From the NCBI GenBank assembly GCA_030248135.1, contig JASANC010001295.1:1-64000 (forward strand): 64,000 nucleotides of DNA, given 5' to 3'. Shown here piece after piece: positions 1-60,745 of this stretch. Source of the DNA: Theristus sp. LFF4_11. Lineage: Eukaryota; Nematoda; Chromadorea; Monhysterida; Xyalidae. Position 1 is the stretch's first letter. The number at the start of each line of letters is the position of its first letter. The translations under genes and the position numbers were made by a program. A model generated the notes under the pieces. The model was not told where the DNA came from. It was given only the letters and a program-made list of their open reading frames with translations, and ran no database searches.

Positions 1-1332
1 CAGAAAAACAAGCACCGTCTATTTGTAGACGACAAAACAAAGATTATTTTCTGGATCGACGAATTCGATCAAAGACACAGGATCATCGTAGCCGCAAAAC
101 ATCAAAGCGCACTGCTGGAGGCAACACACGAGAAGTCAGGCCATTTCAGCCCACGGCGTTCGTTGGCAGCGCTCACGAAACGATTCTGGTGGCGAAACAT
201 GCGACGCGACGTCATCAACCACTACAGAGCGTGTCGGCTGTGTGCAACACGCCAGGGCCAAACTCGGCAGCACAAGAACCAGATGACATCAATCGATGTC
301 ATTCCAGTGCCATTCAAAAAGATCGCACTGGATTTGCTGAAAATCGGCAAAGACAAGTTTGAGAACGACTATGTTCTCGTGATAACATGTTTGTTTTCAA
401 AATGGCCAGAGGTCTACATCGTAAAAGATCAGACCGCTGCCACGTGCATACGCTGCGTGGAACTTTATTTCCGGTTCGGAAAACCGACGGAGATGATCTC
501 CGATAACGGGCCACAGTTTATCTCTAACGAGATGAAAGAGTTCTGCAAATCGGAGGGCATCTTTCAAAAGTTCTCGGCACCGCATCACCCGCAAAGCAAC
601 CCAACGGAGCGCAACCATCAATGGATTCTGGCGTCGTTGGCCAAGGAGTGCAAGCAACCAAGTGAGTGGTCACTGCATCTTCCGAAAGTTCTTTACAACT
701 ATCGGACGTCAGTGCACAGCTCAACGGGCTGCACCCCTTGGGTACTCGTGTTTGGGCGTGATCCGCCCTTTCCTAGCGATGACATTTTCGCTAGGATGCC
801 GAACGAAGGGAATGACGAAATTCCAACCAAACAAGCAGTTCGCCTAAAACAGGCCGAGTCGACGGAGTTGGCGGCGCAAAACATCCGCAAGGTGAACAAG
901 CGCACCAAACAGACGTACGACAAGAAGAAGGGCGCCGATCCTACCGTGCGTCCAGGAAACAGAGTGTTTCGACGCTATACGTTGCGTGATGCAAAGACGA
1001 GAAAACTAAGGAGACAATTCCTTGGTCCATACCGTTTGGTATTTTTGACAAAGCAAGGAGCAGCTTATCTCCTGCCGGTTAACAAACCGGACACACAACC
1101 GATGCTCTGCAATGTGCAAGAGTTGTCATATTGTTATGACCAATATCCAGATCGCTCCTTTTGGGACGGCAAAAAGGAGCATTATTTCAGAAAAAACTGG
1201 TGCTCCGAGCAGCGAACGATTCGAATTCCAATGGACGTGATCGCAAAACTGCCGAGACTGGTGCAAGAGAACCCCGCCGAAACGCAGACTCGCACGTTGC
1301 CACGGCGCGACGGTGCGAGCAAGAAGCAGTGA
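1..1332 (+). CDS. Ty3/Gypsy-type integrase, C-terminal part of pol (5' end outside window)
   Basis: The frame is open from base 1, so this is the end of a longer pol polyprotein. An HHCC zinc-binding module comes first (HEKSGH, then CRLC near base 235). The catalytic core follows, with an aspartate in IALDLL, a second in SDNGPQF and the glutamate in NPTERNHQ, which is the D,D-E triad of retroviral-type integrases. The C-terminal part contains FLGPYRLV, the GPY/F module typical of Ty3/Gypsy (Metaviridae) integrases. No chromodomain is evident after it. The protein would join element cDNA to host DNA. No stop or frameshift is seen up to the TGA at 1330-1332. A donor-like CAA|GTAAGT lies about 10 bases after the stop. 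Reverse transcriptase, RNase H and protease would lie upstream of the window. Confidence 0.93.
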   Translation, partial: QKNKHRLFVDDKTKIIFWIDEFDQRHRIIVAAKHQSALLEATHEKSGHFSPRRSLAALTKRFWWRNMRRDVINHYRACRLCATRQGQTRQHKNQMTSIDVIPVPFKKIALDLLKIGKDKFENDYVLVITCLFSKWPEVYIVKDQTAATCIRCVELYFRFGKPTEMISDNGPQFISNEMKEFCKSEGIFQKFSAPHHPQSNPTERNHQWILASLAKECKQPSEWSLHLPKVLYNYRTSVHSSTGCTPWVLVFGRDPPFPSDDIFARMPNEGNDEIPTKQAVRLKQAESTELAAQNIRKVNKRTKQTYDKKKGADPTVRPGNRVFRRYTLRDAKTRKLRRQFLGPYRLVFLTKQGAAYLLPVNKPDTQPMLCNVQELSYCYDQYPDRSFWDGKKEHYFRKNWCSEQRTIRIPMDVIAKLPRLVQENPAETQTRTLPRRDGASKKQ

Positions 1333-2937
1333 ACTTCAAGTAAGTAGGAGCCGCAGAACTCTGTTTTGCTAGCTCCACAATTTTTAAAGTTTTTTTTTTC
1401 AGGTAAAAAGGAAGCTTCAGCCCAGGTGTTGTCGCTTCAAAAACGCTGATTGAAGGTGTAGTGACAGTTTTGTTTTGTCCTACACAGCAATTCAGATTTC
1501 TGTTTGTTTGTCTGCTTCTGCGTTGGTTTCGATCCTTGTGGTTGCAAAACAGCTGCAGGGACGAAATCGACCGGCGGCAGGCAAAAACAGAGTAACTTGG
1601 ACAAAATTTTTGCAATAAGCAAAAGTTCCAAGTTAGTTTGACAAGGTTTCATTTCGAAACGAAGCAGGACTTCGGTTGAATTCCTGCTTGTCAGTTCAGT
1701 TTTTCACGACTTTAATGTGAAACAAAGCAAATTTCTGTTGTGTTTTTGCTTTACAAACCAGTTTTATTGCATTCTAAAGCAGTGTCATGCCCTACTCACC
1801 ATTTAAATCCCTCATTTTTCGTTAAAAACAACGGGCATGAAAACAACAAAAAGTTTTCACACACGTGTTCATTTGAGTGTGTGTACAGCAGATAGTCAAA
1901 AAAAAATTATGACTATCAGCATACTTCAGTACAAGGAGTGTGCTGAAACATTCACTTTGAAAACAAAACGTTTTCATCAAGCGTAAGCTTGAAACCTAAT
2001 GCAGTTTAGCTGGTAAAAACCAAGCTCTATCAATTTTCAATTGATACAACCAAGAAACCAATCAATATTGATTGGAAATCAACGTTTCAACGTGATTTGA
2101 GTTGAAGAGGAACGACTACCGTAACTGGTACAAACTTCCAGCCAAGACCAGTGTCTAGGTATGACGTCAAGGTGGGTGGATATTGCACCACCCAAGAACC
2201 AAAGGCAATCATGGTTAAGGGGGAGAAGTGACTGAAGAGAGGAGAGGTGACGAAAGTTAGTTCACCTAAACGACACTTTCGGATGTGTCTCTGCTCCCAG
2301 AGCAGATAAAGTAAGACCAACAACAGCACTTGGTGCTGCGTGTGTTGTTTTATTTCCCCTCCCTTTTCTTTTACTTTTATTTCATTAAAATTCAATTTTT
2401 CACATTCAATTTCATTAAAAAACTCCCCCCTAAAATTTAAAAAACACCAAAAACTTAAAATTTTAAAACTTTTTCTTGTCAAGCCAGGCTTGTAAAATAG
2501 CCCATAAGCCTTGACAGGAAAATATTAAATAAATTTCATTCAACTTTCACAAAATTTTCATTCCCTTCAAAAACTCAAAATCACCAAAATTCCATTCTTC
2601 ATAACACACACGTCATCATCACCGCTACGACTTGGTACGTTTCGCTGTTGTGTTTGTGTTGTGCATTCACCAATGCTTATTTACAAAACGTGGCATAAAA
2701 ATCACCTTTCATCAAAAGGTTTAGCATGTTTTACTTGCTAGTGCACCGGGTAACAACTGTTACCTTTGCTTGGGGGCTGGTTCTCCTTTGCAGCTTGCTT
2801 TTGTTTTGTTTGCGTGTTTCAAAAGTTTATTTTTCTGAAATCACAAAATTTTATTTTTCTTTTTTTCCATGTGTTATGTGAATGCTAACAAAACGTTGGC
2901 TTGTGTGTGTGTCCATGGTAAAAGGAGCACACACTAA
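1333..2937 (+). other. Spacer between integrase and the giant ORF, with splice-like sites
   Basis: I see no convincing coding region here. A donor-like GTAAGT lies at about 1338. A polypyrimidine run ending in TTTCAG lies near 1402. Another acceptor-like TTTATTGCAG ends at 2965, just inside the next ORF. I looked for a copy of the putative 3' LTR (9981 onward) and found none, so this does not look like a junction between two elements. Splicing to a downstream ORF, as for env messages of errantiviruses, would fit these sites but is inference. Confidence 0.5.
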
Positions 2938-5900
2938 TTGCACGGTTCTTTTTCATTTATTGCAGGCCAGAAGATACTAAAATATCTGATGAGCCAAAAC
3001 CAAAATGAAACGCAAACGCGAACAGCCGAAACTGCTGCCACGTCGTTGACGGGTGCGCCGACTTCAACAACAGCGCAAACAACAGCGGGCACGCTACCGT
3101 TGGGTGGCTTAGCCCAGAGTGTGGAGGCACTCACAACAACACAATCGACATCAGGCCTCCCACCACAACAAGCTGTGATACCAGGATCACATCACCCAAC
3201 TGGGCACCCGGTTTCAACCGCCGGTCAGCCACCTCCTGGCCAAAGTGCACATCTACCGCAAGGCGCCTTTCAGGCTCCAGAGTCGATGGACGATGGCACA
3301 GGCAACAAGCTGTACAGCGACGTTGCGGAAGTCGAGCTTGAATACGAACCGGTCGATCCGTTGGACGCCCCGCTTGACTTCGACGAATCGCTTGCTCAGA
3401 TGTCGGCCGGTGTACAACCGTCGACGATTTCTCCTGAGCACCAGGCAGCGCTTACGCTGGACGAAGCCATCGAATTGCTTGGCTTCACAGATCAAGGTAC
3501 GTCAGAATTATGCACTGACATCCGGGAACGAACCGGAGCAGACAAAGTCAAAGTGTGGACCGATTATATCGGTGACCTGTATACCAGGGCAAGAGAAGTG
3601 TTCCCTAATGTGGGACTGGGCTGGCTGACATTGTCACAGCTCAATGATTGGTGCCAGGTGCCTCCAATGGATGGCCAACGACCTTTGGTCGTGTTGAGAG
3701 CAGGCAAACGAATCTATCTAATTGATGATGACTTTGCGCGACGAATTTTGTCGCAAGACACAGAATTCGCAGAGATTCCAAGCGATGAGCTGCACCTGCG
3801 CATTACTGCACCACGGGCATCACCAGGCCCATGGGCACCAGTGCCGATCGACGTGCAGCTAAGCAGAGCAAATCTTTTCACGCTATCCAGGCTGACTTCA
3901 ACCTGGACGGAGGCAGAATTTCAGAATGACCATTCGGCGCACGCAGTGCACCTGTTGGTGAAATCGTACTCAGATGTGATGGCCGATCACGCTCTCACGA
4001 TGTACGCACTGACGGCAACGTGCGACGAAAGAATCGCGGAACTACCGGTGCCAACGTACGATTCGTCGAACTTGGCAGCGGACATGCCGGTCTGGCCAAT
4101 CACGCTAGCGCGCTTGGCCGGAAAGAAAGAGAAATCAGGCATGAACCTGGATTGTCTGAAACACGGTAAAGTTTCGACGGTACCAATGCAAACGTACCTG
4201 ATTAAATCAGATGATTACCGCCAAGGTAAGAAAAGGATGAACGTTGCATCCTACACCAGGCAGATTCCTAAGGAACAACGGAAGCCGAAAGAATTGGCGG
4301 CATCGCCAGAACAAGCAGGCTGCTCAAAGCTGCCGTTTGATCTAAAAGAAGAACTTTTGGAAAATTCCAAAGAAAACAGGTTCCCATCGAACATGGATCA
4401 CGCGACAAGTGTGCTGATCCAACGACAGATCAACGAAGTGGTGCATCGATACGCGCCGTACACAAAAGCACGGAGTCGCCTTCCAGGCGAGATTTTGAGA
4501 ACGGATGCATACGATGCATTGTGGACTGGACGTGAGTCCAGTTACACGCTCAGAGAAGCGATGAGGCGCCACTCAAGGTTAGTGGGACGTACCATTGGTA
4601 TGGCAAAAGAAGTGATATGGGTGTCAGACATGCATCCATATCAGCTGAACGAGTTGCTCGATTTCATTCGTCAGCAATCATCAGTGATGAATGGGCATGT
4701 GGCGTTTCACTACACGTTCTTCATGCCAATGAGTGGACACACAAAACCCACTGGCACCGCTGAGCAACCGCACTTCATTCCAGCTTCAGTGCGAGCCAAC
4801 AAAGGCTACGTAGAACAGGTGAAGTACCCGCTGACTCTGTTCATCGCGACAGGCGCGTACTGCGTGGCGATCGATCTGCCGCTGATGTTCGATCCGGCGA
4901 TGCGCAACGAAAACAGGGCGAAAGTCGATCTGCTGGTCAAGTTCCTGAAGGACGACGCAACCAGTTTCCATCACTGGGAAACGATCGACGATTTCTTCGT
5001 GGGCATGAACAATGCCTACTCAGAGGATCTTGAAAAGAAACCTCTGTTCGAAAGGTCGTATCTGCCAAACCACTACGATACGCGCCCGCTCATGCAGAAA
5101 ATTGGCTTTGCCAATATGAGCGAGCGACCGACACAGTTCACGCCGTGGGCGAACACTTACGTGCCGCCAACGCCGGGCACCGTGCTAACAGTGTTCACGG
5201 GCAAAGCGCACGATTTCATCCACTTTTCACAGGATGGCCTGGAGCGCAACCTCATGTACTCTGAGGGCTCCTGGCAACAAAACAGTATCGTACCAAAGAA
5301 GTACATGTTGGACTGGAAAACAAACCAGGGCAGACACTATGCCTTCCACTTCAACTGGGTCGTACTAATCTACGACGCGCTGTTTTTCAGCCTGGCATGT
5401 TCAGATGCGTTCGCAGCGACAGGCTACGAGAAGCGAATCGGCAGCCACGTCAAGCCGTGGTACGACACGTATCGAGCGGCGATCGACGTCGGATTGGCGT
5501 ACATCACGCGTGCTGACGAGAGCCCGTTCGATTGGTACAGCCGACAGCCGGTTGCGCCGCAAGACGTGACGTTCGACAAAACGAACGCGAACTCGCTGAC
5601 GCGACTGATCTTCGCACAGACGTACATTGAGTACGACAGGGCAGTTAGCTTCGTACAGCAACACCCTGAACAACTGATCGAAGGAACGGATCCAGAAATC
5701 CCGCGGGTGAAACACACCCCGACCGAAGAAGAGCCATACAAATATGGCTACGATCTGGTGAAAGATCGACATTTGATGATGCACCAGTACGCACTGAAGC
5801 GTACACAAACATTGCGAACAGCAATTAACATTCAAATCAATGAATGTGTGAAGTCAGTGACGTACACACCGTACGCATTGCACAGCATGGCCGAAACGTG

Positions 5901-8900
5901 TATTCGACATTTCGTATACAGGCTGCTGCAATCAACGACAGGCATCGTGATGACGAACGCCACCAGCAACTACGCGTATCGCCTGGCAAATCTGGTGTAC
6001 AATGAGGTGCGACGCACGAAGGCACTGTGCTATCTGCAAGGTAAGCACATGTGCAAAGGCGGATGCGAACAAATTCCGCCGAACGAGTACGAAATCGAGC
6101 CGTCGGTGCCAAGCAGCTATCTGGGCGTGCAGGTCGAGCCAACTACACCGTGGTTCGACAGGCACTTCTTGAAAGCGGGCACATTGTTGTACAAAGGTGA
6201 CCAGAACCTGCTACAACATTGGACGCAACAATTGCGTTACACCAACGAACAACAGTTTGTATCAGGACAGATACAGGCGTTGACGAGCTGGCCAGGCTCG
6301 TTCCGCATCAGTGGAGTGCGACAGCTAAACAGCTTCGGCTGGGTGGAACCAGTGCCACCCAGCACGAGACGAAGGTTTGTGTCAACGGAAGTTGACGGCA
6401 TGAACAAGTATTCATGCAGAAACGAAGATGTGTATCCAACAGATACGACACCAGAAAAGGTGAATGAGGACTGGAAACGAATAAAAGAAGAAGGTCCGAC
6501 GAACACGCACACGGACATCGACATGCTGCAGACCGTGTCGGCACAAATCAACATGCCGACGTCAAGACTGGCGACGTTGCCGCTGCACATGGAGATGGAC
6601 TTCGCGACAGCGCGGGCGCTGACACTGGCGATCCTCGTGCGCGCATCGTTGGAGCTCGTTTTCCAGAAGCTCTATAACGTTCCGTCGGAACGTTATGACC
6701 AACTGGTCGCTGCACTTGTGCAGTTGAACAGGAACGCGGATCAAACGATCCGGCAGTCTTGCGACTGCAAAACGATTTTCCGATTTTTCAACCCGTTTTA
6801 TTGCAGCCTACAAACGATTCGAAAGCGCACAGATGGCAAAACGACACGCCACTCGCTCCGTTGTGCCAAGGCAGCGCGCATCTGCGATCAGGATTTGTTC
6901 GCAATGCACCAGCTGATCGAATACGTGCGAGTGTGGTGGACAATCGTGTCGAACCACACAAGTTTGCCGTTCAAAGCGGAGTTGATTGAGGCAGTGAAAC
7001 TGCGCAGCCAGGAGCGTATTTTGCGAACGGCTGAATTGATTCGAAAGTTAGTGGGTCAAACAGAAACCCCGCCACGAAAGCTCAACTTGGCGTTACAAAG
7101 ACAACGTCATAAAGAGTACAGGGAACTGTTGTCTCCAACGGAGGCGCCATCGGACATGAACGCTTCCGCGGCAAGTTCGGGCGGCACGCCATTCACGCCG
7201 GATATGATGACGCAGGAGCAACAACGACAGGCGTTGCAGCGCTTGGAATATCAACAGCAACAAAAGATGTTGCAGGCTGCTTGGCAGCCAACACAACAGA
7301 TTCCGTTGCGAGCGAAACATATTCGCGAAAAACAGCAACAAGCCGGACAGCCGAGTTTTCACCCGACTATCCCTGGCGCAATACAGTTTCGGCCGCCACT
7401 GCCAGTCGCACAATCGTCTGGTACGTTCACAATTGGACAAATCACACCACCTAGTGGTTTGCCAGGAACAGCGTGGGCACAGGCCGTCGAAAATCAGGTT
7501 GCACAAGAACGACTGCAACGGTTGCGTTTTACGCAACCACCACCACTGAGAACGCCAGAGCAACAACAGGGCCGAACACAGAGCCAACCGCAGCAAACGC
7601 CGCAGTCGTCACGTTCGTCGTACGGGTCCGAGTACGAGCCACCGCCGAAGCGCACGCCAGTGGACGGTGACCAAAGAAGACGATCACGGTCCACTCGTGG
7701 ACCCGACACAGCGGCGAAACGCCAGCGCGAGAAAGCGGCCGAAGAAATTCGGCGCGACACTCAGCGTCGCCAAGCTCAGGATGAGTTGACAGATTTGCCA
7801 CTAACGTTGCGATGCCCGTTATCCGGTTTTGCTAATCCTAAACCGCGGGCAATACAAAAGAAGGAAAACGAAAAGTTTTTCCGTGACACACAAGAAGTTC
7901 ACGAAACACCAGTTGAATTGCTGTCTGCGATGGCTGCAAACGCAGAACAGTTCACAACACCAATCACGGCACATGATTTGGTGGCCATAAAAGTGCAGGA
8001 AGATCCTCGCAAAGCGCAGAAGTACATGCGACCACCGTACGATGCGCTGCCACGACCGGTGTTCGTGGAAAACGAGACGACGAAGCCGTTGACGGACACG
8101 TCGAAAGAGGCGGAAGAGAGGCGCACGAATTTCTACAACAGTGTGCCGCAACCGCCAGAGGACAACCTGCTGCCGATCGATGCGCCGTCGGTGATCGCAG
8201 TGCAGGACACCGGCCTCAGAATGTTCATGAATCCACGCGGATTCCTCGCAGAACTTCTGCGTCAAAAAGGCTCGCACGTGCAACACGTGATCAAGCACTT
8301 GGCGTATGAAATCAGTCATACGCCACAGACAGAGTTCAATGGGGATCCGCCAGATCCACGCTACATTGGTAACAATAAGCCAATGGAGAATGTGACGATG
8401 ATGCAAACGCTCATGCTCGCAGAAGCAGAGCGTGAAAAGCAGACTGGCGTCAAGCTGCGCTCGTTCCTGCAACCGATGTTCTTGGAGCCAATTAGGGGCC
8501 CAATGCATCGTTGGACGGCGCAGGAACAGTACGCCTTCTACCACAGTTTCACCACTGAGGGTTGTCCGCGAGTCACTGCGGAGCACAAAGATGATCTGCA
8601 AAAGCAGAATGTTCCAGAGCTCACAACAATTGAGTTGACGGACATCAAGGAGGAGCCGATGGACGTCGTGGAAGAGCAGAAGGCGGCGTACGACGAACAA
8701 TTGCAGCGAGAGTTGGCGAAAAGGATGGAGGAACAGCGCCAACGATGGAAGCAGTACCAGCGACCAGCGGGCCTGTCAGCGAGACCGGCTACTTCGCAAT
8801 CGCAGGCAAGTTCGACGACAGTGCAGTCGTCGGAATTGATTCCAGAATTCAATGAAATATTGAGACGCCAAGTGACAGTAAACAGACCAGGTCTGACTAC

Positions 8901-9603
8901 AACCACTTGGGGTGAAGATTCAGATGTGCAATCAGTGATTTCAGGCACGACAGATCCAGACGTCAGTGTCTTTGACTACGCTTGTACCACTTGTGGGTAC
9001 GAGGGTCATGTGAGTACCGAGTGTCCACTTGACCCTAGACTAGTACAGGTGCAAGACCCCTTGCGTACGTTGACTGAAATTCAGTCAACGGCTCCGATTG
9101 GCGATGCGCAAGTGCAACGCTCTGCAGCGGCGATTACCGACTCAGAAAGCATGCGAGCGCAAGCGGCGTCGACAAAACGAAGCAGCCGTGAACAATCGAA
9201 GTCGAGGAGCAAAAAGGACACCGCAACGACAAGTAAAAGTCCAAGAAGACAGAAACCTAAACACGGCATTGAGGTGCCAAAAACGTTGGTGAGACTACCA
9301 CAACAACAACATAGTACTCCGAAAGGAAGTACAGTGCCTTCGGGGCACAGTCACAAAAAGAAGCAAACGGACACTGCTGGAGTGTCGGGTGTTTCAGCAC
9401 AGGCGCGAACGACACAAGGGCAACAGCGGGAAACCCCACGCGCAGTCGATGAAGACGTGATTCGAACGCCGGGCCACTCAAGCGCAACGCCGTCACCGGA
9501 CGAAGCCGCGTGCGAGCTCGGTAGACGCCATCGACGCCCGTTGTCGTTTGCGAAGCCGACTGATCCACCACTGCCACAGAGACAGCAGCCGCCAAAACAG
9601 TAA
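2938..9603 (+). CDS. Giant retroelement ORF with CCHC zinc knuckle, downstream of integrase
   Basis: A single uninterrupted reading frame of 2,221 codons. The first plausible AUG is at 2989 (MSQNQNET), 24 bases after an acceptor-like TTTATTGCAG, so the 17 codons before it are probably not translated. The N-terminal ~120 residues are rich in Thr, Ala, Gln and Pro. Residues ~160-1400 look globular and mixed in composition, with no family I recognise. Residues ~1400-1650 are Gln-rich and then strongly basic (RRRSRSTRG, KRQREKAAEE). One zinc knuckle, C-x2-C-x4-H-x4-C (CTTCGYEGHVSTEC), lies near residue 2016. A basic Ser/Arg/Lys tail follows. No signal peptide or transmembrane helix is apparent, which argues against an envelope protein. 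Knuckle plus basic tail is what a Gag nucleocapsid would show. The ORF lies between integrase and the polypurine tract/3' LTR, so I infer it belongs to that element. A captured host gene remains possible. Confidence 0.8.
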   Translation: MHGSFSFIAGQKILKYLMSQNQNETQTRTAETAATSLTGAPTSTTAQTTAGTLPLGGLAQSVEALTTTQSTSGLPPQQAVIPGSHHPTGHPVSTAGQPPPGQSAHLPQGAFQAPESMDDGTGNKLYSDVAEVELEYEPVDPLDAPLDFDESLAQMSAGVQPSTISPEHQAALTLDEAIELLGFTDQGTSELCTDIRERTGADKVKVWTDYIGDLYTRAREVFPNVGLGWLTLSQLNDWCQVPPMDGQRPLVVLRAGKRIYLIDDDFARRILSQDTEFAEIPSDELHLRITAPRASPGPWAPVPIDVQLSRANLFTLSRLTSTWTEAEFQNDHSAHAVHLLVKSYSDVMADHALTMYALTATCDERIAELPVPTYDSSNLAADMPVWPITLARLAGKKEKSGMNLDCLKHGKVSTVPMQTYLIKSDDYRQGKKRMNVASYTRQIPKEQRKPKELAASPEQAGCSKLPFDLKEELLENSKENRFPSNMDHATSVLIQRQINEVVHRYAPYTKARSRLPGEILRTDAYDALWTGRESSYTLREAMRRHSRLVGRTIGMAKEVIWVSDMHPYQLNELLDFIRQQSSVMNGHVAFHYTFFMPMSGHTKPTGTAEQPHFIPASVRANKGYVEQVKYPLTLFIATGAYCVAIDLPLMFDPAMRNENRAKVDLLVKFLKDDATSFHHWETIDDFFVGMNNAYSEDLEKKPLFERSYLPNHYDTRPLMQKIGFANMSERPTQFTPWANTYVPPTPGTVLTVFTGKAHDFIHFSQDGLERNLMYSEGSWQQNSIVPKKYMLDWKTNQGRHYAFHFNWVVLIYDALFFSLACSDAFAATGYEKRIGSHVKPWYDTYRAAIDVGLAYITRADESPFDWYSRQPVAPQDVTFDKTNANSLTRLIFAQTYIEYDRAVSFVQQHPEQLIEGTDPEIPRVKHTPTEEEPYKYGYDLVKDRHLMMHQYALKRTQTLRTAINIQINECVKSVTYTPYALHSMAETCIRHFVYRLLQSTTGIVMTNATSNYAYRLANLVYNEVRRTKALCYLQGKHMCKGGCEQIPPNEYEIEPSVPSSYLGVQVEPTTPWFDRHFLKAGTLLYKGDQNLLQHWTQQLRYTNEQQFVSGQIQALTSWPGSFRISGVRQLNSFGWVEPVPPSTRRRFVSTEVDGMNKYSCRNEDVYPTDTTPEKVNEDWKRIKEEGPTNTHTDIDMLQTVSAQINMPTSRLATLPLHMEMDFATARALTLAILVRASLELVFQKLYNVPSERYDQLVAALVQLNRNADQTIRQSCDCKTIFRFFNPFYCSLQTIRKRTDGKTTRHSLRCAKAARICDQDLFAMHQLIEYVRVWWTIVSNHTSLPFKAELIEAVKLRSQERILRTAELIRKLVGQTETPPRKLNLALQRQRHKEYRELLSPTEAPSDMNASAASSGGTPFTPDMMTQEQQRQALQRLEYQQQQKMLQAAWQPTQQIPLRAKHIREKQQQAGQPSFHPTIPGAIQFRPPLPVAQSSGTFTIGQITPPSGLPGTAWAQAVENQVAQERLQRLRFTQPPPLRTPEQQQGRTQSQPQQTPQSSRSSYGSEYEPPPKRTPVDGDQRRRSRSTRGPDTAAKRQREKAAEEIRRDTQRRQAQDELTDLPLTLRCPLSGFANPKPRAIQKKENEKFFRDTQEVHETPVELLSAMAANAEQFTTPITAHDLVAIKVQEDPRKAQKYMRPPYDALPRPVFVENETTKPLTDTSKEAEERRTNFYNSVPQPPEDNLLPIDAPSVIAVQDTGLRMFMNPRGFLAELLRQKGSHVQHVIKHLAYEISHTPQTEFNGDPPDPRYIGNNKPMENVTMMQTLMLAEAEREKQTGVKLRSFLQPMFLEPIRGPMHRWTAQEQYAFYHSFTTEGCPRVTAEHKDDLQKQNVPELTTIELTDIKEEPMDVVEEQKAAYDEQLQRELAKRMEEQRQRWKQYQRPAGLSARPATSQSQASSTTVQSSELIPEFNEILRRQVTVNRPGLTTTTWGEDSDVQSVISGTTDPDVSVFDYACTTCGYEGHVSTECPLDPRLVQVQDPLRTLTEIQSTAPIGDAQVQRSAAAITDSESMRAQAASTKRSSREQSKSRSKKDTATTSKSPRRQKPKHGIEVPKTLVRLPQQQHSTPKGSTVPSGHSHKKKQTDTAGVSGVSAQARTTQGQQRETPRAVDEDVIRTPGHSSATPSPDEAACELGRRHRRPLSFAKPTDPPLPQRQQPPKQ

Positions 9604-9970
9604 CGAACACTAAAAACATCGGCGGCAACAGCTGGACGTTTTTTTCTTTTGTTATTCATCTGTGATTAAAAATTACTGATGATTGATCAAACGTTTTTTT
9701 TTTATAATTCACAAGTTTGTGTAACCACTCTGCTTGCGGAGTGGCTTGTTCTTGTTTTTTTTGTTTCGTTTCTTTTCGTCCAGTTGTCACTAATTGTTTT
9801 AAAACTCAAAAATTTACTAGTCTCGTGGCCGTACATTCCAGTTTGCGTGTCTGTGTTTTTTTTTTCTTTTTCTCACAGTTTTTCTTTTCTTCCACCAACA
9901 GTGATCTCTTAATAGTGATTACCTTTCAACACATTCATTTGTGGTCTCGTGGAAGAGACCTTTCTTTTCG
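9604..9970 (+). other. 3' untranslated stretch of the LTR element
   Basis: T-rich sequence between the giant ORF stop and the polypurine tract. I see no gene, repeat or structured RNA in it. Confidence 0.4.
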
Positions 9971-9979
9971 GGGGGACAG
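9971..9979 (+). promoter_or_regulatory. Polypurine tract (plus-strand primer)
   Basis: GGGGGACAG lies directly before a TGTCAGG sequence. A short G-rich purine run immediately 5' of a TG-starting LTR is the usual plus-strand priming site in Ty3/Gypsy elements. It is assigned by position and composition only. Confidence 0.6.
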
Positions 9980-9980
9980 T

Positions 9981-10480
9981 TGTCAGGTCCACTATTGGAC
10001 GCTACTGTGCAACTGTTCCCAAAATCCTAAACTACTCTTTATTTTTACCGTTCAACATCCACATCTACAACAGTTAACCTATTTCTTGTCAATTGGTCAA
10101 CACTTTCCAACTGCATTTAACTGTTTGTGCAGCATGTGTTCTGGATGTACGAATACTCAAACAATAAAAGTTCTTGAATATAGTAAAGACTTGTGTTGTT
10201 TGGGGTTGGATTGCGTGGCCGCCTCCACGGGCGGATACGCAAGGTCGCCTGACCCGTAGGCGTACAGGCGATTTACTGACTACAGCCGGTAACGTATTGC
10301 TGGTCCTCCGGCGCCAGTGTAGATTATACGTTCTGCTTTAAGTCTAATCAACAACAAGAGCTGTAACCAAGAGTAGCAGTTTCTTTTATTTTATTCATTT
10401 AATAATTGTAACACAATAATTCGCTAGTTTGGTCATCCCAAGAGGTGATCACTAACGAAGGACTGAGTCATTCAACAGGT
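9981..10480 (+). repeat. Probable 3' LTR of the Ty3/Gypsy-type element (right end uncertain)
   Basis: It begins TGTCAGGTCC directly after the polypurine tract and contains an AATAAA signal at 10163-10168. The right boundary is a guess, near an ACA at 10474-10478. The 5' LTR lies outside the window, so the two ends cannot be compared and no target duplication can be assigned. Confidence 0.5.
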
Positions 10481-10639
10481 GATGTTCCTCAGTCCAACTG
10501 TCCGTGATGTGAGCATCGGCATGTCGACCGTACGAGACCCCGTTCAGTGTCGGCGAACAGATGTGACGGACCTACGTCGGGAACCCGTGTCGCGGGACGG
10601 TGGAACGGCGGCCGACTGGCTGACTCGGCGCCCTGGCGT

Positions 10640-10995
10640 AGATTCACAATTCACCATTTGTTTACGGGAAGAAATCGGCTAAACGGAAAGACTGGTTTGC
10701 TGTAAACGGCAAGCGCATGTTTGGCGGCACATGACGTCATTTCAGTGGGACACGTTTAAAAAACAGGTCATATCTCAATATACATTGTATGTTTTCTTGT
10801 ATATGTACCAGTTTGTTATACATTTACCACCTTGTACGTCAATGTTTTCAATACTGTACTTCAATATCAAGTCTCACCCGTGCAGCGTGTCTTGTTCGTG
10901 TAGCTTTCAGATGTCCCGAACGAAAATCAAAGCAAAATGTATGACTAGAGAGAGGCCTTGACTGGATGCTGTGGTTTCTGGCACTTTTATTCAAC
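10640..10995. repeat. Dispersed repeat fragments shared with 46.0 kb and 50.8 kb
   Basis: The part at ~10655-10765 recurs inverted at ~50800-50920 (shared landmarks: TTTACGGGAAGAAATCGGC and GGCACATGACGTCATTTCAG). The part at ~10840-10995 recurs inverted at ~46035-46220 (shared landmark: CAAAGCAAAATGTATGACTA). The second part includes TTTCAG followed by a 16-codon ATG frame that ends in TGA. I do not recognise that peptide. Confidence 0.7.
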
Positions 10996-11116: not shown

Positions 11117-12690
11117 TTAAAACAACCGGGTAAGGGCTAAAAAACCGTACAATATGTAATAAACAAGGTTGTGGTGGTCGCCAGTGACGGGAGCCAGCTG
11201 TGTGGGCATGTTTGTGGTCACGCTAGTCGCTGTTGGCTTCGACATGTTTGTGATTGTGGTCTGGGCACTGGCAGTGGTTGACGTTGTTGCCGGCGTGGGT
11301 TGCATGCAGCTGGTGAGTTTGAAATCTGTAAGAACTGCAGAGTGGTCTGATGGCCATGGTCCGAGTATTCGACACCCCATGCATGGTTTGGCACCGAACA
11401 CGAAGGATGATTCGACACGCATTCGATCTACATTGTCGCTGCTCCTGCATATCAGATCGTTGTCGAAGCGAGCGAAAATGTAGTCTATGCGGTCTTGCGG
11501 CTCATAGTTTTTTGAAAACCGGGGACCATGTTTCTCCACCGACCACAGCTGCGTTCTTATGAGTAACTCGAAAAGTGTCTGTAAAGTTGTGGGCATCAAG
11601 AAATTTTGTTGATGCCCAATTGTAGCTGCTATTGCAGTGCTTGACTTTCACATCTTCAGTCCAATCCAAATGCGACGGGGTGTTGAAATCGCCGCCGATT
11701 ATGGCTCCCAGCACTGGATGGCATGAATTCGCATTCTCAGTCACGCAGTGGCCGGCTGCCGTGTGCTTCGCCCATTCCACGACCCGTTTCAGATGTTCAA
11801 GCCTGAAATGCTCTTTGGGCCGGATTACTCTAATTACACTGCAAATACGGTATGGCCGATTAAACATGGCAGCTTTTTTCAGGGTTCAAGGAGCGCGCGA
11901 ATTTTGACTGTAAGAAAAAAGACGTTCAGAAACCAAATTGTGTGCCAAATTTGACGCGTTTTTTTTAAACTAACGGATTATCCGCGCTATTCTGTTCATT
12001 CTTTTTCCGTTGCACGCATGATTGGGAATTACCATATTACCCCCATTACCATATTACCAATAAATCCCCACCCCTAAAAGTCGCTGACGTATTAATCCCC
12101 CATGGGGGTTTATTGGGGGTAATACGGTATGCTGCATTTTTGAAAAAGACAACTCCTACCTAGTCTGCGACTGATCCCGCCTTGATGGACTGCCTCATTT
12201 ATTCGGCCATACTGTAACACAAAGATCACACTGTTTTGTTGCGATCCTTGGTGTCGAACCATCGACATAAAAGCAAATTCAGAAATATACGCACACTGAT
12301 GCACAAAAACACAACCAGCTGTGGATTGAAAAAGTCTACCGTACGCTGACAACAAAAAATAAGATTTGTATTTGAAACTCAGTAGCACCTTACAAACCTC
12401 ATCACTTCGCCGTAATCGAATTCAACTTGTTTCAGGTGCTTGCAGAAGAACTCTGGCCCATACGGGTGTGCGGTCAAGTAGACCGAGGCCACCACTAGGC
12501 AGACCGGTGTTCCGCTGGCGCCCGTTGTTTGCAGCGTTGCGCCAACTGTGGACCCGCCGTGGTTGAGCAGCACTGTGTCGTGCGAGTTCAATTGCAGGCG
12601 AGTCAGGATGCCGGCTTGACGACTGCCGCACCAATTGTATGTTTTGTTGCTGAGGGCGTTCAACTCCTGGGCGATGTTGGAGAGACAGAT
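11117..12690 (-). pseudogene. Endonuclease/exonuclease/phosphatase-domain gene fragment, frameshifted
   Basis: Two blocks read on the minus strand. The upstream block (~12690 to 12398) includes IAQELNAL and ends at a donor-like AG|GTTTGT. The downstream block (11838 to 11117, acceptor TATTTGCAG) carries GGDFNTPSHLDW, then DRIDYIFAR, then WPSDHSAVL. These are the Asp-Phe-Asn, Asp-hinge and Ser-Asp-His motifs of the EEP (DNase I/exonuclease III) superfamily, which hydrolyses phosphodiester or phosphomonoester bonds with a metal. The frame changes at a run of six T on the plus strand (11508-11513): the first part reads GETWSPVF and then stops, while the second resumes at NYEPQDR one base out of frame. 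No N-terminal start is visible. It is either a degraded copy or an intact gene with a homopolymer assembly error. The flanks are dispersed repeat. Confidence 0.7.
12030..12132. repeat. Short inverted-repeat element with GTATTACC ends, in the EEP intron
   Basis: ATTACC-type repeats at the left and GGGGGTAATACGGTA at the right face each other across a CCCCCATGGGGG palindrome. The same building blocks recur in a larger element at 46278-46725. Confidence 0.55.
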
Positions 12691-19800: not shown

Positions 19801-22800
19801 GCTCCGTTCTGTTTCTAATCTGAACTGAACAAGTCTGAACAGGTGTCGTCATAGACGCTCTACAGGTCTAAAAATCAAGTCTAGAAATTGAGAGGCCATT
19901 ACAAAAAGCCTAGACCCCGTAAAGCTTTGTTTCTGTGCAGCAGGGGTTGTCAAATGACAAAATCGCTTTGTTGTTTGACCACAGGCGTAAAAACGCTACT
20001 TTTAGTGATGAATGACGCCGAAATATATTGCTTCTTTATTGTTATTCGTTCGATTTAGACTGGTATCATATTGACGCAAAAAAATTTGTGCTGACGCAAA
20101 ATTTTTTGACCGTTTGCGTCAATTGACGCAAGAAAAATTTGACGAAAAAAAACCCTGGTCGCAACATTGTGTTGTATTCGGAAGACTAATTGATTCAGAT
20201 GCATGTAACATTAGTTTTAATAGTTTTTTTTTCCAGACAACAGACTGGCACCCTCACAGACACACAAACACACCGGCAACACACTCGCTGCTGCAACGCA
20301 ATGCGTGTGCATGTGTGTGTGTGTGTGTGTGTGCCTGTGTGTTTGTCTGTGAGATGCATAACCTTGGACAAGAAACTCGCGTTGATGAAGTGAAGCAAAA
20401 ATTGCCAATCCATTCACAAGACCACAAAAACTTCCAATTTCCAGGGTGTCTGGTGGTACAACTCAATCAAATACAGCGCCGATCAAGTACTGATGGACAC
20501 GACGCATTTGTTCTTTACGTTGTTCAATAAAACCTCAAATATGATTCTCAGAAGTGAGTACAGTCTAGCTCTATAACATATCCAACTGTTGATTGGTTGG
20601 TGATCACGTGATGCATGTATTCTGGTCGAGTTTTTACAGTCAAGTATGTTCTTTGTATGCTGCAAGCTGATTGGCTGAGTTTTCACTGAGCGCAGGTTTA
20701 TCTTTTTTAGCTGAGTAGTTTAGCTTTTTTACATTTTGGTAAAAAAACGATAAACATACGTTTTTATCCATGAACTTGCGGCTGCATTCTGCTGTGGGTT
20801 TCGGACACGTCAATATGCACGGTATGTTTGTTTGAACCGGTCACTTCTTTCGCAGAATACAGAGCTCGCGAATGTAGAAAAAACGGGATATCCTTAAAAA
20901 ATCTATTTCGCCACATTTGGGGTGTTTCTAAACCCGATATATTCGCTCATTTGACTGCAATTCAAAGCTTCGCATTCTGCGCAAAAAAGTGACCGTTGTA
21001 AACACACGTACTTTACTCTGTGGCGAATCGCTCTATTAAGATGAAAACGCACCGACAAACACAGTTATACGTTTTTTTTGTTGCGTTTTTTCCAGGAGCA
21101 ATCACAGTCCTGTCGGGTGCGTTCGAATTCTGGAAACTCTACAACAAAGAGGTGGTCGAACGACCGTCCGATGATCGTGAAGTGCCACAGGTCTGATCAG
21201 AAAAAAACCTAAAAGAGTAGCAGAATTCATTCTTATAAGATTGGCAACAGGTATGGTGCGGGGTCAACTCCGGCCCACGCATTTCCGGCCCACGCATTAG
21301 CGTCCCGACATTTCCGGCCCACCCATTACCGGCCCACCCATTACCGTCCCACCAATTACCGGCCCGACATTTCCGGCCCATTCATTTCCGGCCCACTCAT
21401 TTCCGGCCCGCCCATTACCGGCCCAGCCCAATAATCAGTTCTTCCTTCTCTGTATTTCGCCACGGACAACGAAAATAAACTGAAACCGCAGTCTAAACTG
21501 TACTCCCTGCTCACCGACATGCTTTTAACAAAAATATTTAAATTTTTCATTTCGGATTTAGTTTTCATTTTGCTTTTTTCATTTATTCCTGACATTGGAA
21601 AAAATGTCTCAGTTTGAATTTCGTCGATGAATCATATGATGATGAATCGATGAATAAAAAAAGCTGTGTTTTTATTTATTGTTTTGTTCCGATTAATTTT
21701 GCACTTTCAATTTCAATAACAACAACATGTCTGATAGGTCGACAAAAAAGGAGCTTTCGAACCGCGCTGACGCGCTGAGTTCGAATTTTGCATTGAACAC
21801 AGAGCCAAATTCAATCGTTTTAATCCTTAAAATTAGCAAAAACTTTTATGAAAATTGCTCCTCTAACCAAATTTGGACATGTGGATCAGTGGATCCACAA
21901 CCAGGTTGTGTTTCCTAATCCTAATCATTCCTAATCCTAAACCTAATCCTAAGCCAAGCCTTTTTGATAAGGTGAAAATGATCAATTTAGTTTTTACATT
22001 TTTTCTTTCCTGTGTTATAGGGCAGGGGCACGCAACGCTTCATTATGATATGCACCTGCCCCGCATCCGCATTGCTCATTGCTCATGATCCACTGGCGCG
22101 CGTGCACACACTCCGCGCTCAACAAAAACTCGCTCAAAACGCAGTTATTTTCATTCCTACTTTCTTAAAAAGGCTTGGCTTAGGTCAGGATTAGGTTAGG
22201 AACAGTTTTTACTTAAGATTAGGCTTAGGTTTGGTTTTTAGGTTTAGGTCCGTTTTAGCAATGTCCGAGAACATCCAATTGTGGAGCGTGAGTTAACTGG
22301 AGCGTAATATCATAAAACGTGCCAACCGCAGGGGCACCGCACCGCTACAGCACATGCACATCTCTTAATAATGATGCATCACGAAAAAATCCGATTGAAA
22401 AAAAGAATTAAAAAATCGAACCCTAGTTCAAAGTGTAACCGCTTGATCAATGTGAGTTTCCCAATGAAATATAGCAGTGGGTGGTAGTAGTTGAAGTCAC
22501 TGAAGCGAATTATTGGGCTGGGCCGGTAATGGGTGGGCCGGAAATGAGTGGGCCGGAAATGAGTGGGCCGGAAATGTTGGGCCGGAAATGCGTGGGCCGG
22601 AAATAACGGGACGCAAATGAACGCACGCCGTTTCGTTTCAGCTGATGAAGGAGCTGCCAAAGTTCGCCGACAACACCAAGGATCGCCCGCTGTGCTTTCC
22701 ATACGCCGTGAAAACGCGCGCGATCATACACGCGCATTTGTACCGTATACCGCTGCCTTCCGACACGCTCGATATCGGTTGCTTGCTGATTATCGTTTTG

Positions 22801-30635: not shown

Positions 30636-31075
30636 TGTTGATGGCTTGTTGATGTGCACGTTGATGGGTTGTTGATGTGCACGTTGATGGCTTGTTGATG
30701 TGGACGTTGATGGCTTGTTGATGTGCACGTTGATGGCTTGTTGATGTGCGCGTTGATGGCTTGTTGATGTGCACGTTGATAGCTTGTTGATGTGCACGTT
30801 GATAGCTTGTTGATGTGGACGTTGATGGGTTGTTGATGTGCACGTTGATGGCTTGTTGATGTGCACGTTGATGGCTTGTTGATGTGCACGTTGATGGCTT
30901 GTTGATGTGCACGTTGATGGCTTATTGATGTGCACGTTGATGGCTTATTTATGTGCACGTTGATGGCTTGTTGATGTGCACGTTGATGGCTTGTTGATGT
31001 GCACGTTGATGGCTTATTGATGTGCACGTTGATGGCTTGTTGATGTGCACGTTGATGGCTTGCTGATGTGGACGT
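30636..31075. repeat. 23-bp minisatellite directly after the SEC63 stop
   Basis: About 19 copies of a 23-bp unit (GTTGATGGCTTGTTGATGTG plus CAC), with single-base variants (GTGGAC, GGGTTG, TAGCTTG). The array begins within a few bases of the SEC63 stop codon, so it should form most of that 3' UTR. 23 is not a multiple of 3, so the open frames across it are by-products of periodicity. Confidence 0.95.
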
Positions 31076-54893: not shown

Positions 54894-54920
54894 AGCAATT
54901 ACCGGGAGGGGGTACCCCCC

Positions 54921-55704
54921 AATTGAAGAAAGGAACCATGCAACAGCTGGATAAAGTTGTCCTTGGTTTAAACAAAGCACAGACAATAAAAAACAAAACA
55001 GAAAAACAGTAACAATTTACCGATCAACACACCTGTTCTTCATCGGTGATACAACTGTCATTGTCGTCGTCTTGTGGAGTTTCAACCCGTTGTCGCTTAG
55101 CGGTTGCAAAACGTCGTTTATCATTCGAGCCAGCGTGTTTGTGCGAACGTCCCATTATGTCGTTGTGAAAATGATCGAAATTGAAGCCAGCAACAGTCCT
55201 TTGTCGAAATTCTACAGACGGTGAACCTGGAACAGCACAAAATAGCATGTAGATCAGCGAGAGAAAATTATGGAATCGAACACGTTTCGGGCCCGAATCA
55301 CAGACGTGTTCGACTCGTTCGACTAGTGGCCCATCATCAGTGTGATGCTAGTCGAACAACAAGGAGCTGAAATACAAAAGGCAAAAATCAAACAACAGAC
55401 AGAGCAAAGGCAACCATTTTAGTTGGTTGGTCAAGTCCGAATTTGAGAAGAGCATTAGTATTTGAAGCACCAAAACGGAAAAGACGGCAAAGAATCTTTT
55501 CTCTTGTAAACCCTTGATCAATGAGAGTGGAACAAAGAAGTTTGACGTTGTGAGCAAAGTCTTTTTTGTCGGAACAAACGCGAGCAAAGCGCATGGACTG
55601 GGCAGAAAAAATGTTATAGCCAACAGAGGAATGAGTCAGGCTATCTGCATGAACATACTTGAGCACTTTAAAGTGAAAATCTCGAGTTTTATCGTAAATG
55701 TCAA
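54921..55704 (-). repeat. Downstream terminal repeat (pLTR) of the Penelope-like element
   Basis: 784 bp, matched by 59963-60745 apart from a few changes. It includes the last ~105 codons of the RT ORF, the hammerhead-like motif (55275-55358) and an ORF1 first-exon copy (55248-55024). Confidence 0.88.
55275..55358 (-). ncRNA. Hammerhead-ribozyme-like motif, downstream copy
   Basis: On the minus strand it contains CTGATGA (55340-55334) and GAAAC (55288-55284), the two conserved core strings. Pairings are available: GGGCC/GGCCC for stem II, ATCACA/TGTGAT for stem I, and TCGAACACG/CGTGTTCGA for stem III with a following C as the possible cleavage base. Hammerheads are known in Penelope terminal repeats. 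The linear order of strands here does not close as one ordinary hammerhead. Activity could need a dimer or a different fold. Confidence 0.5.
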
Positions 55705-58423
55705 CCTTCAACCCCCTATCAACGTTGATTTTAAGGTCCAAAAAGTTGGCCTCCGTTTTAACATCGTTAGACTTATTAAGCGGAATGGTAGGGGGATAAA
55801 TATCTTTAGCGATATCCATAAAATTCTCACAATTCAAAACAAGTAAATCATCAATATTACGACATGCATAGCCAAGTTTCACAATATTTTCTTTATTCCT
55901 GCGATCAGTAAGATATTTGTATTCAAGTCCTGTTAAGGTTAAACAAGCAAGTTTAGGAGCACTAACTGAACCCATTGGGATGCCTAGAACTTGGCGGTAA
56001 ATACTCCCTGCAAATTTAACATAAGTTTCTCCAACTACGAATCTAATCATGTCTTTGATCTCAGTGCTGTCGAAGGACAGCAAACCAGGCAGTTTGCTAT
56101 CACAATATTGGTAGTAGTCAGAATGTTTTGACAGACATAGAAATCTCTTTCTGGAGTTTTTGAAACAAATATTGACAATATTGTCAAGGCTGTCATAAAT
56201 AACTTGATGAGGTAAGGCAGTATATAGCGTGCTAAAATCAGCCGAAACAATGCTGTCAATTTTATCAAGACTTTGTAACATACCCAACACGTCCAGGTTG
56301 TTCTTGACGGCCCAAAAACAATGTATGCCGTTGTTTGATAAAACCTGCCTGCAGTAATGCCTGAAATGCGTTTGAAGGGCACACAGAATCTTGTGAAGCA
56401 AGGTATTGATTGCTTTGCAACTGGATTGCCTGGCACCAGCAATAAATCTGAATGAGTACGGATCTTTATGCAGCTTTGGAATAGTGAAGATGGTAGGGAG
56501 AACAAGATCAGAGCTTTGACAAACAACACCAAAGGTTGAGCTAACTTTAGAATGAAAATCAACAATGTCAAACTCATTTTTAGCAACAGGATGATAAACA
56601 TTATTGCCACCATTCCTCATATTCCCTTCTCCATCAAATTGGACTCCCATTTCAGTGCACATAACTTGGAGATAAAACTTTTTACAGATAACAACAAAAT
56701 TGTTACTCGCTTTATCGGATTGGGCAATGACATATCGAGCATGAAGATTTTTGAGTTCGAAATGAGGAAATTTGACAGAGTACGCACTAGAATTGCGATG
56801 AACTGTATTGAAAAAACTGATTCTATTGCAAATCAATTTTTCCAAAAGAATACGAACACGAATAAGCTCATGAACATTAACATGACATAATTTAGCGATT
56901 TTACACAAAAAATCATGTACAGCTTCAATCAAAATATCATGAATTTCGGTCCACGACTTACTTTTATTAGACAGTCTGAATTTTGAACCTTTGCTAAACA
57001 GTTCACGTAGCTTGTCATCTTGAATAATATTAAGGTCCCCAGTGATAACATGATTGAAAACAGGATGCTTGAATTCACTTTGTTCACACTCGCAAACGCC
57101 GTGAATAATTGAAGAGAGAAGAGGGGGCGTAAGGGATTTGAGCAGTTTACTGTGGTTACAGAGCAGTCCACTGATAGGTTTATCATAAGAATACACAACT
57201 CTTACATTTTTCAACTTCTGGATAGTGCGTGTAGGTGCAAGAGACAAAATGCGATGATCTTTAAACAAAGTTTCCAACTTCAGGAATTCAAGCTTCTTAT
57301 CAACAAACGGAATATTGCAAAAAGTCGAGGGCTCTTTACGAGCCCTTTCATCTAGTCTGTTGTGAAACTTGCCTGAAAGAAAAGCTTGAACAATACGTCT
57401 TACGGTTGCACTTTGTCCAGTACAGTTTTCTTTAAGAACTGTCCTTTCGGTCTGAATCAATTCACATCTACGTGCAGAGTTCAGAGTGTGAAACATGCCT
57501 TTTCTATCGGAAGGATTTTCCTGATATAACGTTGCTAACCTATTAGCAGTGTTTGTTGCACATTTCCTTTTGGTTCTGTGTTTCTTCTGACCGTGATTCC
57601 TTCTTCTACGGCGGATTGACTGAGTGAAAAAAGGTGAACCTTTTTGTTTGAAACAAGAAAGATCTTCTGTAATTTTGCCGTAGTTGTCAATCTTGTCATT
57701 CAGACCAAAAGGAAAAGCAGTGCAAAGTAGCCGAATCAAGAAATTCTCAACAATAAGTAATTGAGACCTCATTTTTGAACTATCAACATTTTCGTTCTCC
57801 AGACAGAACAACACCCTCACCTTGAGATCGTCAACACAATGTCCATTTTGCGTAAAGTGACGTACCAGCAACGTCTGTTTATCTTTGTTACGAATACTGC
57901 GTTGATGCTCCATAATTCGTTGTTTCAGCATTCGGGCTGTCTGCCCGACATACTGAAAACCACATTTACGACAGGAGATGAGGTAAACAACATTTTTGGA
58001 TTTGCACGAAGATTGAGAGTAAGAAATCATTTGATATTGGATATTTGTTGCGTGAGCAGTAACTAGTTTATCCTGATCAACACTGACACAAACTTTACAA
58101 AAGCGTTCTCCACAGGCTTTGGTTGCATTGGTTCCAATCAGCTTTTTAGACCACCAACTTACAGCTGGCGAAGTGTCATCATTGAGGTTAAGCTTAATGC
58201 ATGCAACTTTTTTGGTATAAGTATTGTTTTGGTTCGTGGGCCGATGGGTTTTACTTCCGTTCTCATAGGCGACTCCTCCTATGAGATAGAAGATGCCGGA
58301 GGGATCCGCGGGGCTGCCGCGGTTAAGGAAGTCCCTCCCCGGTTTCCCAGGTACGACCACCGTCAGACCGGAGGCTAGGCGCCACATGTGCCGGCATACA
58401 CCGTGACTTTTAACCAGATCCAT
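55388..58423 (-). CDS. Penelope-like ORF: GIY-YIG endonuclease + reverse transcriptase
   Basis: 1,011 codons with no break. Residues ~103-112 hold a Cys pair (CGERFCKVC). Residues ~144-200 form a GIY-YIG nuclease (VVYLISC, CRKCGFQYVGQT, LKQRIMEH) with a CxxC inserted between the GIY and YIG parts. A long basic linker follows. The RT has motif A near residue 728 (VSADFSTLYTALPH), motif B near 814 (RQVLGIPMGSVSAPKLACL), the catalytic doublet near 857 (RNIDDLLVL) and a motif-D-like LDLKINV. Residues before motif A (FRFIAGARQSSCKAI) match the RT fingers of Penelope and telomerase-related enzymes. It should nick target DNA and copy element RNA. The start is the first in-frame ATG, 308 bp after ORF1. 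A short overlapping upstream ATG frame could dampen initiation. The stop lies 29 bases before the downstream CTAGTCGAAC hairpin region. Confidence 0.92.
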   Translation of the reverse strand: MDLVKSHGVCRHMWRLASGLTVVVPGKPGRDFLNRGSPADPSGIFYLIGGVAYENGSKTHRPTNQNNTYTKKVACIKLNLNDDTSPAVSWWSKKLIGTNATKACGERFCKVCVSVDQDKLVTAHATNIQYQMISYSQSSCKSKNVVYLISCRKCGFQYVGQTARMLKQRIMEHQRSIRNKDKQTLLVRHFTQNGHCVDDLKVRVLFCLENENVDSSKMRSQLLIVENFLIRLLCTAFPFGLNDKIDNYGKITEDLSCFKQKGSPFFTQSIRRRRRNHGQKKHRTKRKCATNTANRLATLYQENPSDRKGMFHTLNSARRCELIQTERTVLKENCTGQSATVRRIVQAFLSGKFHNRLDERARKEPSTFCNIPFVDKKLEFLKLETLFKDHRILSLAPTRTIQKLKNVRVVYSYDKPISGLLCNHSKLLKSLTPPLLSSIIHGVCECEQSEFKHPVFNHVITGDLNIIQDDKLRELFSKGSKFRLSNKSKSWTEIHDILIEAVHDFLCKIAKLCHVNVHELIRVRILLEKLICNRISFFNTVHRNSSAYSVKFPHFELKNLHARYVIAQSDKASNNFVVICKKFYLQVMCTEMGVQFDGEGNMRNGGNNVYHPVAKNEFDIVDFHSKVSSTFGVVCQSSDLVLPTIFTIPKLHKDPYSFRFIAGARQSSCKAINTLLHKILCALQTHFRHYCRQVLSNNGIHCFWAVKNNLDVLGMLQSLDKIDSIVSADFSTLYTALPHQVIYDSLDNIVNICFKNSRKRFLCLSKHSDYYQYCDSKLPGLLSFDSTEIKDMIRFVVGETYVKFAGSIYRQVLGIPMGSVSAPKLACLTLTGLEYKYLTDRRNKENIVKLGYACRNIDDLLVLNCENFMDIAKDIYPPTIPLNKSNDVKTEANFLDLKINVDRGLKVDIYDKTRDFHFKVLKYVHADSLTHSSVGYNIFSAQSMRFARVCSDKKDFAHNVKLLCSTLIDQGFTREKILCRLFRFGASNTNALLKFGLDQPTKMVAFALSVV

Positions 58424-60197: not shown

Positions 60198-60745
60198 TAT
60201 GTCGTTGTGAAAACGATCGAAATTGAAGCCAGCAACAGTCCTTTGTCGAAATTCTACAGACGGTGAACCTGGAACAGCACAAAATAGCATGTAGATCAGC
60301 GAGAGAAAATTATGGAATCGAACACGTTTCGGGCCCGAATCACAGACGTGTTCGACTCGTTCGACTAGTGGCCCATCATCAGTGTGATGCTAGTCGAACA
60401 ACAAGGAGCTGAAATACAAAAGGCAAAAATCAAACAACAGACAGAGCAAAGGCAACCATTTTAGTTGGTTGGTCAAGTCCGAATTTGAGAAGAGCATTAG
60501 TATTTGAAGCACCAAAACGGAAAAGACGGCAAAGAATCTTTTCTCTTGTAAACCCTTGATCAATGAGAGTGGAACAAAGAAGTTTGACGTTGTGAGCAAA
60601 GTCTTTTTTGTCGGAACAAACGCGAGCAAAGCGCATGGACTGGGCAGAAAAATGTTATAGCCAACAGAGGAATGAGTCAGGCTATCTGCATGAACATACT
60701 TGAGCACTTTAAAGTGAAAATCTCGAGTTTTATCGTAAATGTCAA
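59963..60745 (-). repeat. Upstream terminal repeat (pLTR) of the Penelope-like element, truncated
   Basis: Direct copy of 54921-55704. Its far end (60745) stops abruptly at GTCAA in RT coding sequence, where poly-C repeat begins. It supplies ORF1 exon 1 and presumably the promoter. Confidence 0.87.
60318..60399 (-). ncRNA. Hammerhead-ribozyme-like motif, upstream copy
   Basis: Same strings and pairings as at 55275-55358, with no difference in the core. Conservation in both terminal copies is expected from recent duplication and is not independent evidence of function. Confidence 0.48.

Follow-up and report, generated by a model that had tools for sequence, protein, structure and literature searches.

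Long terminal repeat (LTR) retrotransposons capture open reading frames (ORFs) behind pol in place of env (PMC5408684), and giant gypsy-like elements are already known (PMC6431247); statements about these and the following systems refer to the available portions of the cited articles. In bdelloid rotifers, LTR retrotransposons carry a non-envelope ORF3 in sense orientation after pol, which is reported to be expressed from spliced messages (PMC5408684). Here, we describe an element at the left end of a 64,000-nucleotide stretch of the nematode Theristus sp. LFF4_11 (contig JASANC010001295.1, also called C825; the whole stretch is referred to as the window). Like the rotifer elements, it has an extra sense ORF behind pol instead of env. 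However, the rotifer ORF3s are a GDSL esterase, a DEDDy exonuclease, env or small transmembrane/coiled-coil proteins (PMC5408684), while ORF2 of the Theristus element encodes a zinc-knuckle orphan protein of about 2,200 amino acids (aa).

The planarian element Burro is also a giant gypsy-type element (>30 kb, with a polyprotein of 4,873 aa and extra domains), but, compared by description alone, its additional domains and env homology lie inside ORF1, and a separate knuckle ORF after the integrase is not described in the available portion of the article (PMC6431247). Plant Retand elements share a long coding region between pol and the 3' LTR, for which nucleic-acid binding is proposed; however, the Retand ORFs are antisense and have TRP28, while ORF2 is sense and without TRP28 (PMC11963269). 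Finally, the MDG1 group includes LTR elements that lack Env and carry an accessory ORF, sORF2, which is located downstream of pol in some Lepidoptera elements; unlike ORF2, it encodes a short, fusogen-like transmembrane protein (PMC11952523). In the titles and abstract openings listed by searches of the open-licence literature, no comparably large post-integrase knuckle protein is described.

ORF2 is an additional gene in a Metaviridae element

The plus-strand frame at 2938–9603 is open for 2,221 codons, see Table 1, while the longest stop-to-stop frames in simulated sequences had 318 codons (window composition) and 431 codons (composition of the ORF region; first-order Markov model, 200 sequences of 64 kb per composition). 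The intact, stop-free 6.7 kb that a preliminary description of the window had pointed out is therefore real. Codon-position GC differences along most of the frame resemble those of coding DNA. The frame is a conserved genuine gene, ORF2.

ORF2 is part of an element of 20–21 kb, which belongs to Metaviridae (Ty3/gypsy). Its layout is LTR, ORF1 (a long N-terminal extension, Gag capsid, knuckle, protease, reverse transcriptase (RT), RNase H and integrase), ORF2, polypurine tract, LTR. The window copy shows only the 3' end of ORF1 and what follows; its 5' half is not visible, since window base 1 is also the first base of the contig. Two other contigs, C2891 and C3570, carry LTR-bounded copies. In C2891, an ORF1 frame of 3,202 codons and an ORF2 frame of 2,274 codons are bracketed by two direct repeats (L031:1-684 and L032:1520-2202), which are 98.8% identical and start TGTCAGGTCC; the unit is 19.9 kb. 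C3570 is a near-twin of the window copy with an interrupted ORF1 frame. Its two LTRs, located at about 21-688 and 20189-20856, show a single difference in 668 aligned positions and have ATAA on either outer flank, as in a target-site duplication, thus the unit is about 20.8 kb. The 3' LTR of the window differs from the 5' LTR of C3570 at five of 668 aligned positions. The LTRs flank both genes in C2891 and C3570, which bears out the earlier assignment of the long frame to an LTR element.

The preliminary description had also held that a 5' LTR ahead of the frame would hint at two elements. No LTR-like repeat common with the sequence after the ORF exists in 1–2937, and 1333–2937 has only short chance-like matches to 9604–64000. 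Two adjacent elements are thus ruled out, as both genes lie within one LTR pair in C2891 and C3570.

In ORF1 of C2891, Pfam identifies Retrotrans_gag at residues 1442–1534 (E 4.3e-7), followed by RVT_1, RNase H, H2C2 and rve, i.e., the Gag, RT, RNase H and integrase order of Metaviridae, which is accompanied by LTR pairs in C2891 and C3570, a polypurine tract and a short target-site duplication. Between the Gag domain and RT, a knuckle-like CRKCHELKGHKSNC and a protease DTGA motif are recognised by eye. In the window, Pfam detects Integrase_H2C2 and rve; a GPY motif lies at residue 342, and the top database match of this integrase has 30% identity.

C3570 keeps the C2891-type capsid region at 71% identity. 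The other regions of these two copies are 38–43% (N-extension), 31% (NC region), 60% (protease region), 88% (RT), 89% (RNase H), 79% (integrase) and 39% (ORF2) identical. An ordinary gag ahead of pol is therefore present in both LTR-bounded copies, and no similarity between ORF2 and ORF1 was found by hhalign. Since a regular Gag capsid lies upstream of protease, RT, RNase H and integrase, Gag has not been relocated, contrary to one of the two readings proposed from the window alone. ORF2 is an extra gene in the env position and not the Gag of the element.

Two further features of ORF1 were observed. The N-extension of C3570 (L034) contains two consecutive matches to the N-extension of C2891, with 43% and 39% identity, likely a tandem domain duplication. 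Further, the ORF1 frame of both C2891 (L031:395-684) and C3570 (L034) already runs open through the last part of the 5' LTR, therefore the N-terminus of gag-pol may be LTR-encoded.

Table 1. Features of the element in the window, with strand and basis of assignment
Feature	Position	Strand	Basis
3' end of ORF1 (gag-pol): integrase with H2C2 zinc-binding domain, rve core and GPY motif	1..1332	+	Pfam
Spacer from integrase stop to ORF2, without LTR	1333..2937	+	comparison with 9604-64000
Predicted 3' splice site TTTATTGCAG ahead of ORF2	2956..2965	+	sequence; similar sites in other groups
ORF2, orphan protein gene in env position, 2,204 codons	2989..9603	+	open frame from 2938
ORF2 conserved order-rich core, about residues 150-1350	3385..6987	+	conservation (7 representatives), composition
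ORF2 second conserved block, about residues 1650-1900	7885..8637	+	conservation (7 representatives)
CX2CX4HX4C zinc knuckle, then basic tail (192 residues, net +15)	8983..9024	+	sequence
Polypurine-tract-like G run upstream of 3' LTR	9967..9980	+	sequence
3' LTR, 668 bp, TGTCAGG...TTCACA	9981..10648	+	match to C3570 5' LTR

ORF2 copies, selection and co-inheritance with the integrase

The genome (159 Mb, 3,744 contigs) was searched with the protein of the full window frame, P0001. Among the best of 296 candidates scored, at least 24 rows match at 21 places, and 23 have no inner stop. Twenty of the 21 places were taken as loci, two of which (L019, L020) are cut by the locus ends. The remaining 18 contain frames of 1,943–2,328 codons; 11 look complete, while the end or frame is altered in seven (L003, L007, L008, L011, L013, L014 and L016), with the frame of L003 running into LTR-like sequence. 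The 20 loci fall into seven groups: A (C825, C3570), B (C1485), C (C2891), D (seven copies), E (five), F (three) and G (one). Full-length identity among the groups is 34–68%. A further divergent group (C142, C94, C2129), seen as pieces downstream of related integrases, has top matches of about 29–35%, giving at least eight groups in the genome.

The ratio of nonsynonymous to synonymous changes (dN/dS, Nei-Gojobori) is 0.24, 0.35, 0.14, 0.42, 0.57, 0.27 and 0.16 in the seven pairs with dS <0.2, and 0.14–0.22 in four distant pairs with dS >1; the pair L001-L004 is saturated. The ORF2 protein is under purifying selection, as the preliminary description had supposed.

The same order of pol and ORF2 recurs in other copies. 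In 18 of the 19 related integrase contigs examined, the integrase is followed on its own strand by ORF2 sequence, as seen by the genome search (nine contigs), by reading downstream of the integrase (eight) or from the 3' end only (C1837). These come from 23 listed contigs with rows at ≥63% identity, C2900 fragments and the C958 tail being excluded; C3230, C769 (no room), C140 and C1345 stand outside the 19. The integrase tree and the ORF2 tree show the same groupings for eight copies, i.e., eight of the 20 loci, from groups A, B, C, E and F. Groups A, C, D and F have a G run and a TGTCAGG start behind ORF2, and this pattern is not seen in the available bases of groups B, E and G or of the group D copy L008. 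C142 has the G run, and its LTR start differs by one letter.

In C1418 (L035 with L017), ORF1 N-extension sequence is followed by spacer, and the ORF2 frame is kept with 2,259 codons, which fits a derivative with an internal pol deletion. In a more distant element, C351, whose integrase has 28% identity, the 8 kb downstream contain no long ORF on the integrase strand. A frame of 1,041 codons, open from the region edge, is located opposite this strand (G000:C351:5600-13600, L033).

The ORF2 protein and its start

The TTG that opens the frame is an unlikely start, and the first in-frame ATG, at 2989, is likely preferred. It lies 23 bases past the predicted acceptor TTTATTGCAG, therefore the ORF2 protein probably has 2,204 aa. 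In groups A, B, E, F and G, a predicted acceptor is found 17–28 bases ahead of the first in-frame ATG. A candidate donor right behind the integrase stop of group A was rejected, being absent from the other groups read. The nematode SL1 gave no matches allowing up to two mismatches, and the Rfam SL1 search detected 0 of 14 controls, hence it is uninformative.

In P0001 numbering, the N-terminal part of ORF2 is rich in P/Q/S/T, polar and, by eye, without an evident signal peptide. A second P/Q/S/T-rich stretch (residues about 1400–1640) separates the two conserved blocks. The single zinc knuckle near the C-terminus that had been noted earlier is confirmed as CTTCGYEGHVSTEC at residues 2016–2029, although the Pfam zf-CCHC match (E 0.026) is under its cut-off. 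The CX2CX4HX4C pattern is retained in all eight groups read, including CGHCESSGHTTDKC in C142. The knuckle ligands are among the 325 residues that are invariant in the seven representatives, the basic tail has a net charge of +14 to +21 across the seven groups, and five of the seven representatives end in RRK.

The earlier claim that the protein has no membrane helix is tentative. In a hydropathy scan, the best 19-residue windows of the seven representatives reach 1.73–1.98, above the customary threshold of 1.6, but the top window of each contains an acidic residue. In P0001 the peaks are near residues 632 and 808, and similar peaks exist in other groups.

No credible relative of ORF2 was found in 5.8 billion proteins by searches limited by shared words and length, neither with the single sequence (E up to 1e-3, 5,217 candidates) nor with a seven-row profile (E up to 1, 3,572 candidates). 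No homologue was detected in viral contigs, and none of five pattern matches in prokaryote contigs was confirmed. All matches to PDB sequences have E ≥0.37, Pfam shows no capsid, Env or fusogen family in ORF2, and NCBIfam no family. By sequence, the protein is thus an orphan. The preliminary description had held that single-copy orthologues without pol in related species would speak against its reading; within the word and length limits of these protein searches, no homologue came up. A PHROG terminase match in P0072 (E 0.0099) and a Pfam eIF3g match in one of seven members (E 0.0065) were taken as chance.

Other features of the window

An ORF of 1,011 aa on the minus strand (55388–58423) matches GIY-YIG at its N-terminus, just under the cut-off (E 2e-4). 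It is flanked by 300-bp direct repeats (54918–55217 and 59960–60259) that are 100% alike. We take it to resemble Penelope-like elements with an N-terminal endonuclease; Pfam matched no RT family in it. Frames at 11117–11885 (minus strand) with GGDFN and SDHSAVLTDF-like stretches presumably resemble an endonuclease/exonuclease/phosphatase domain, and Pfam found nothing in 11117–11599. A tandem repeat at 30637–31075 consists of about 19 near-perfect 23-bp units (95% matches).

Possible function and origin of ORF2

We suggest that ORF2 is a soluble RNA-binding protein for particle structure or packaging, made from a spliced mRNA and replacing env, a reading to which we assign a probability of roughly 45%. 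The acceptor near the start suggests that ORF2 would be translated from a spliced subgenomic mRNA, by analogy with env in related elements. The product would be a soluble multidomain protein in which (i) the large folded core may be a structural or assembly component associated with the particle and (ii) the C-terminal knuckle and basic tail could bind RNA and aid the packaging of the unusually long genome. It would substitute for env, and not act as a membrane fusogen. Comparing C2891 with C3570, the identity of ORF2 is similar to that of the ORF1 N-extension, therefore the two change at a similar rate, which also supports this reading.

Several observations speak against it. The element already has an ordinary Gag that includes a knuckle, thus RNA packaging has no evident gap to fill, and the Gag capsid evolves more slowly than ORF2. 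In groups C and D an acceptor is present, yet it is not closely followed by the first in-frame ATG, which lies at codons 44 and 71, respectively, and no splice donor recurring across groups was found in the groups read. The hydropathy peaks make a membrane segment possible. Finally, single-sequence AlphaFold models of the window sequence (pLDDT 39.7 and 34.3) are unusable, so the function of ORF2 is inferred only.

ORF2 could instead derive from a host or viral gene that was captured and joined to a knuckle, and act as an enzyme, a regulator or a suppressor of silencing. The many invariant residues in the core would agree with this, as would the enzymatic captured ORF3s of rotifer LTR elements (PMC5408684), but a source family was not found in the sequence, Pfam, PDB, NCBIfam and PHROG searches, and we regard such an origin as rather unlikely. 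It can also be speculated, with more doubt, that the element has two independent structural systems, the Gag capsid of ORF1 and an unrelated knuckle protein of about 2,200 aa that is made from a spliced mRNA, serves as shell, scaffold or packaging factor, and would enable the element to carry a genome of about 20 kb.

A role of ORF2 as a stand-in for Env when the element passes between cells (entry, export or movement), possibly through its internal hydrophobic segments while the knuckle holds the ribonucleoprotein, seems quite unlikely. The env position, the predicted acceptor and the hydropathy peaks fit this proposal, and a membrane sORF2 is known in Env-less LTR elements, but sORF2 has about 63–107 aa compared with about 2,200 aa for ORF2 (PMC11952523). 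Further, Pfam shows no Env or fusogen family in ORF2, and by eye no signal peptide is evident.

A main capsid gene moved behind the integrase is very improbable: the C-terminal location of the knuckle would suit a Gag, but the capsid domain of ORF1 contradicts it for C2891 and C3570, the 5' half of the window copy itself being outside the assembly. Least credible of all is a host gene or second element that by chance lies next to an integrase remnant. The 2.2 kb read ahead of ORF2 in C1418 lack an integrase and the 2 kb read behind the integrase of C2090 lack ORF2, which might point to such a neighbour, but both genes are LTR-enclosed, the pairing is recurrent, the trees agree and C1418 fits a pol deletion.

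In the comparison systems, as far as the available portions of the articles describe them, the extra ORFs known behind pol are short, antisense or recognisable imports. What is new here is an orphan of about 2,200 residues with a Gag-type knuckle, present in at least eight groups and co-evolving with pol. ORF2 thus provides a handle on the size of giant retroelements and on how structural or transmission genes are gained.

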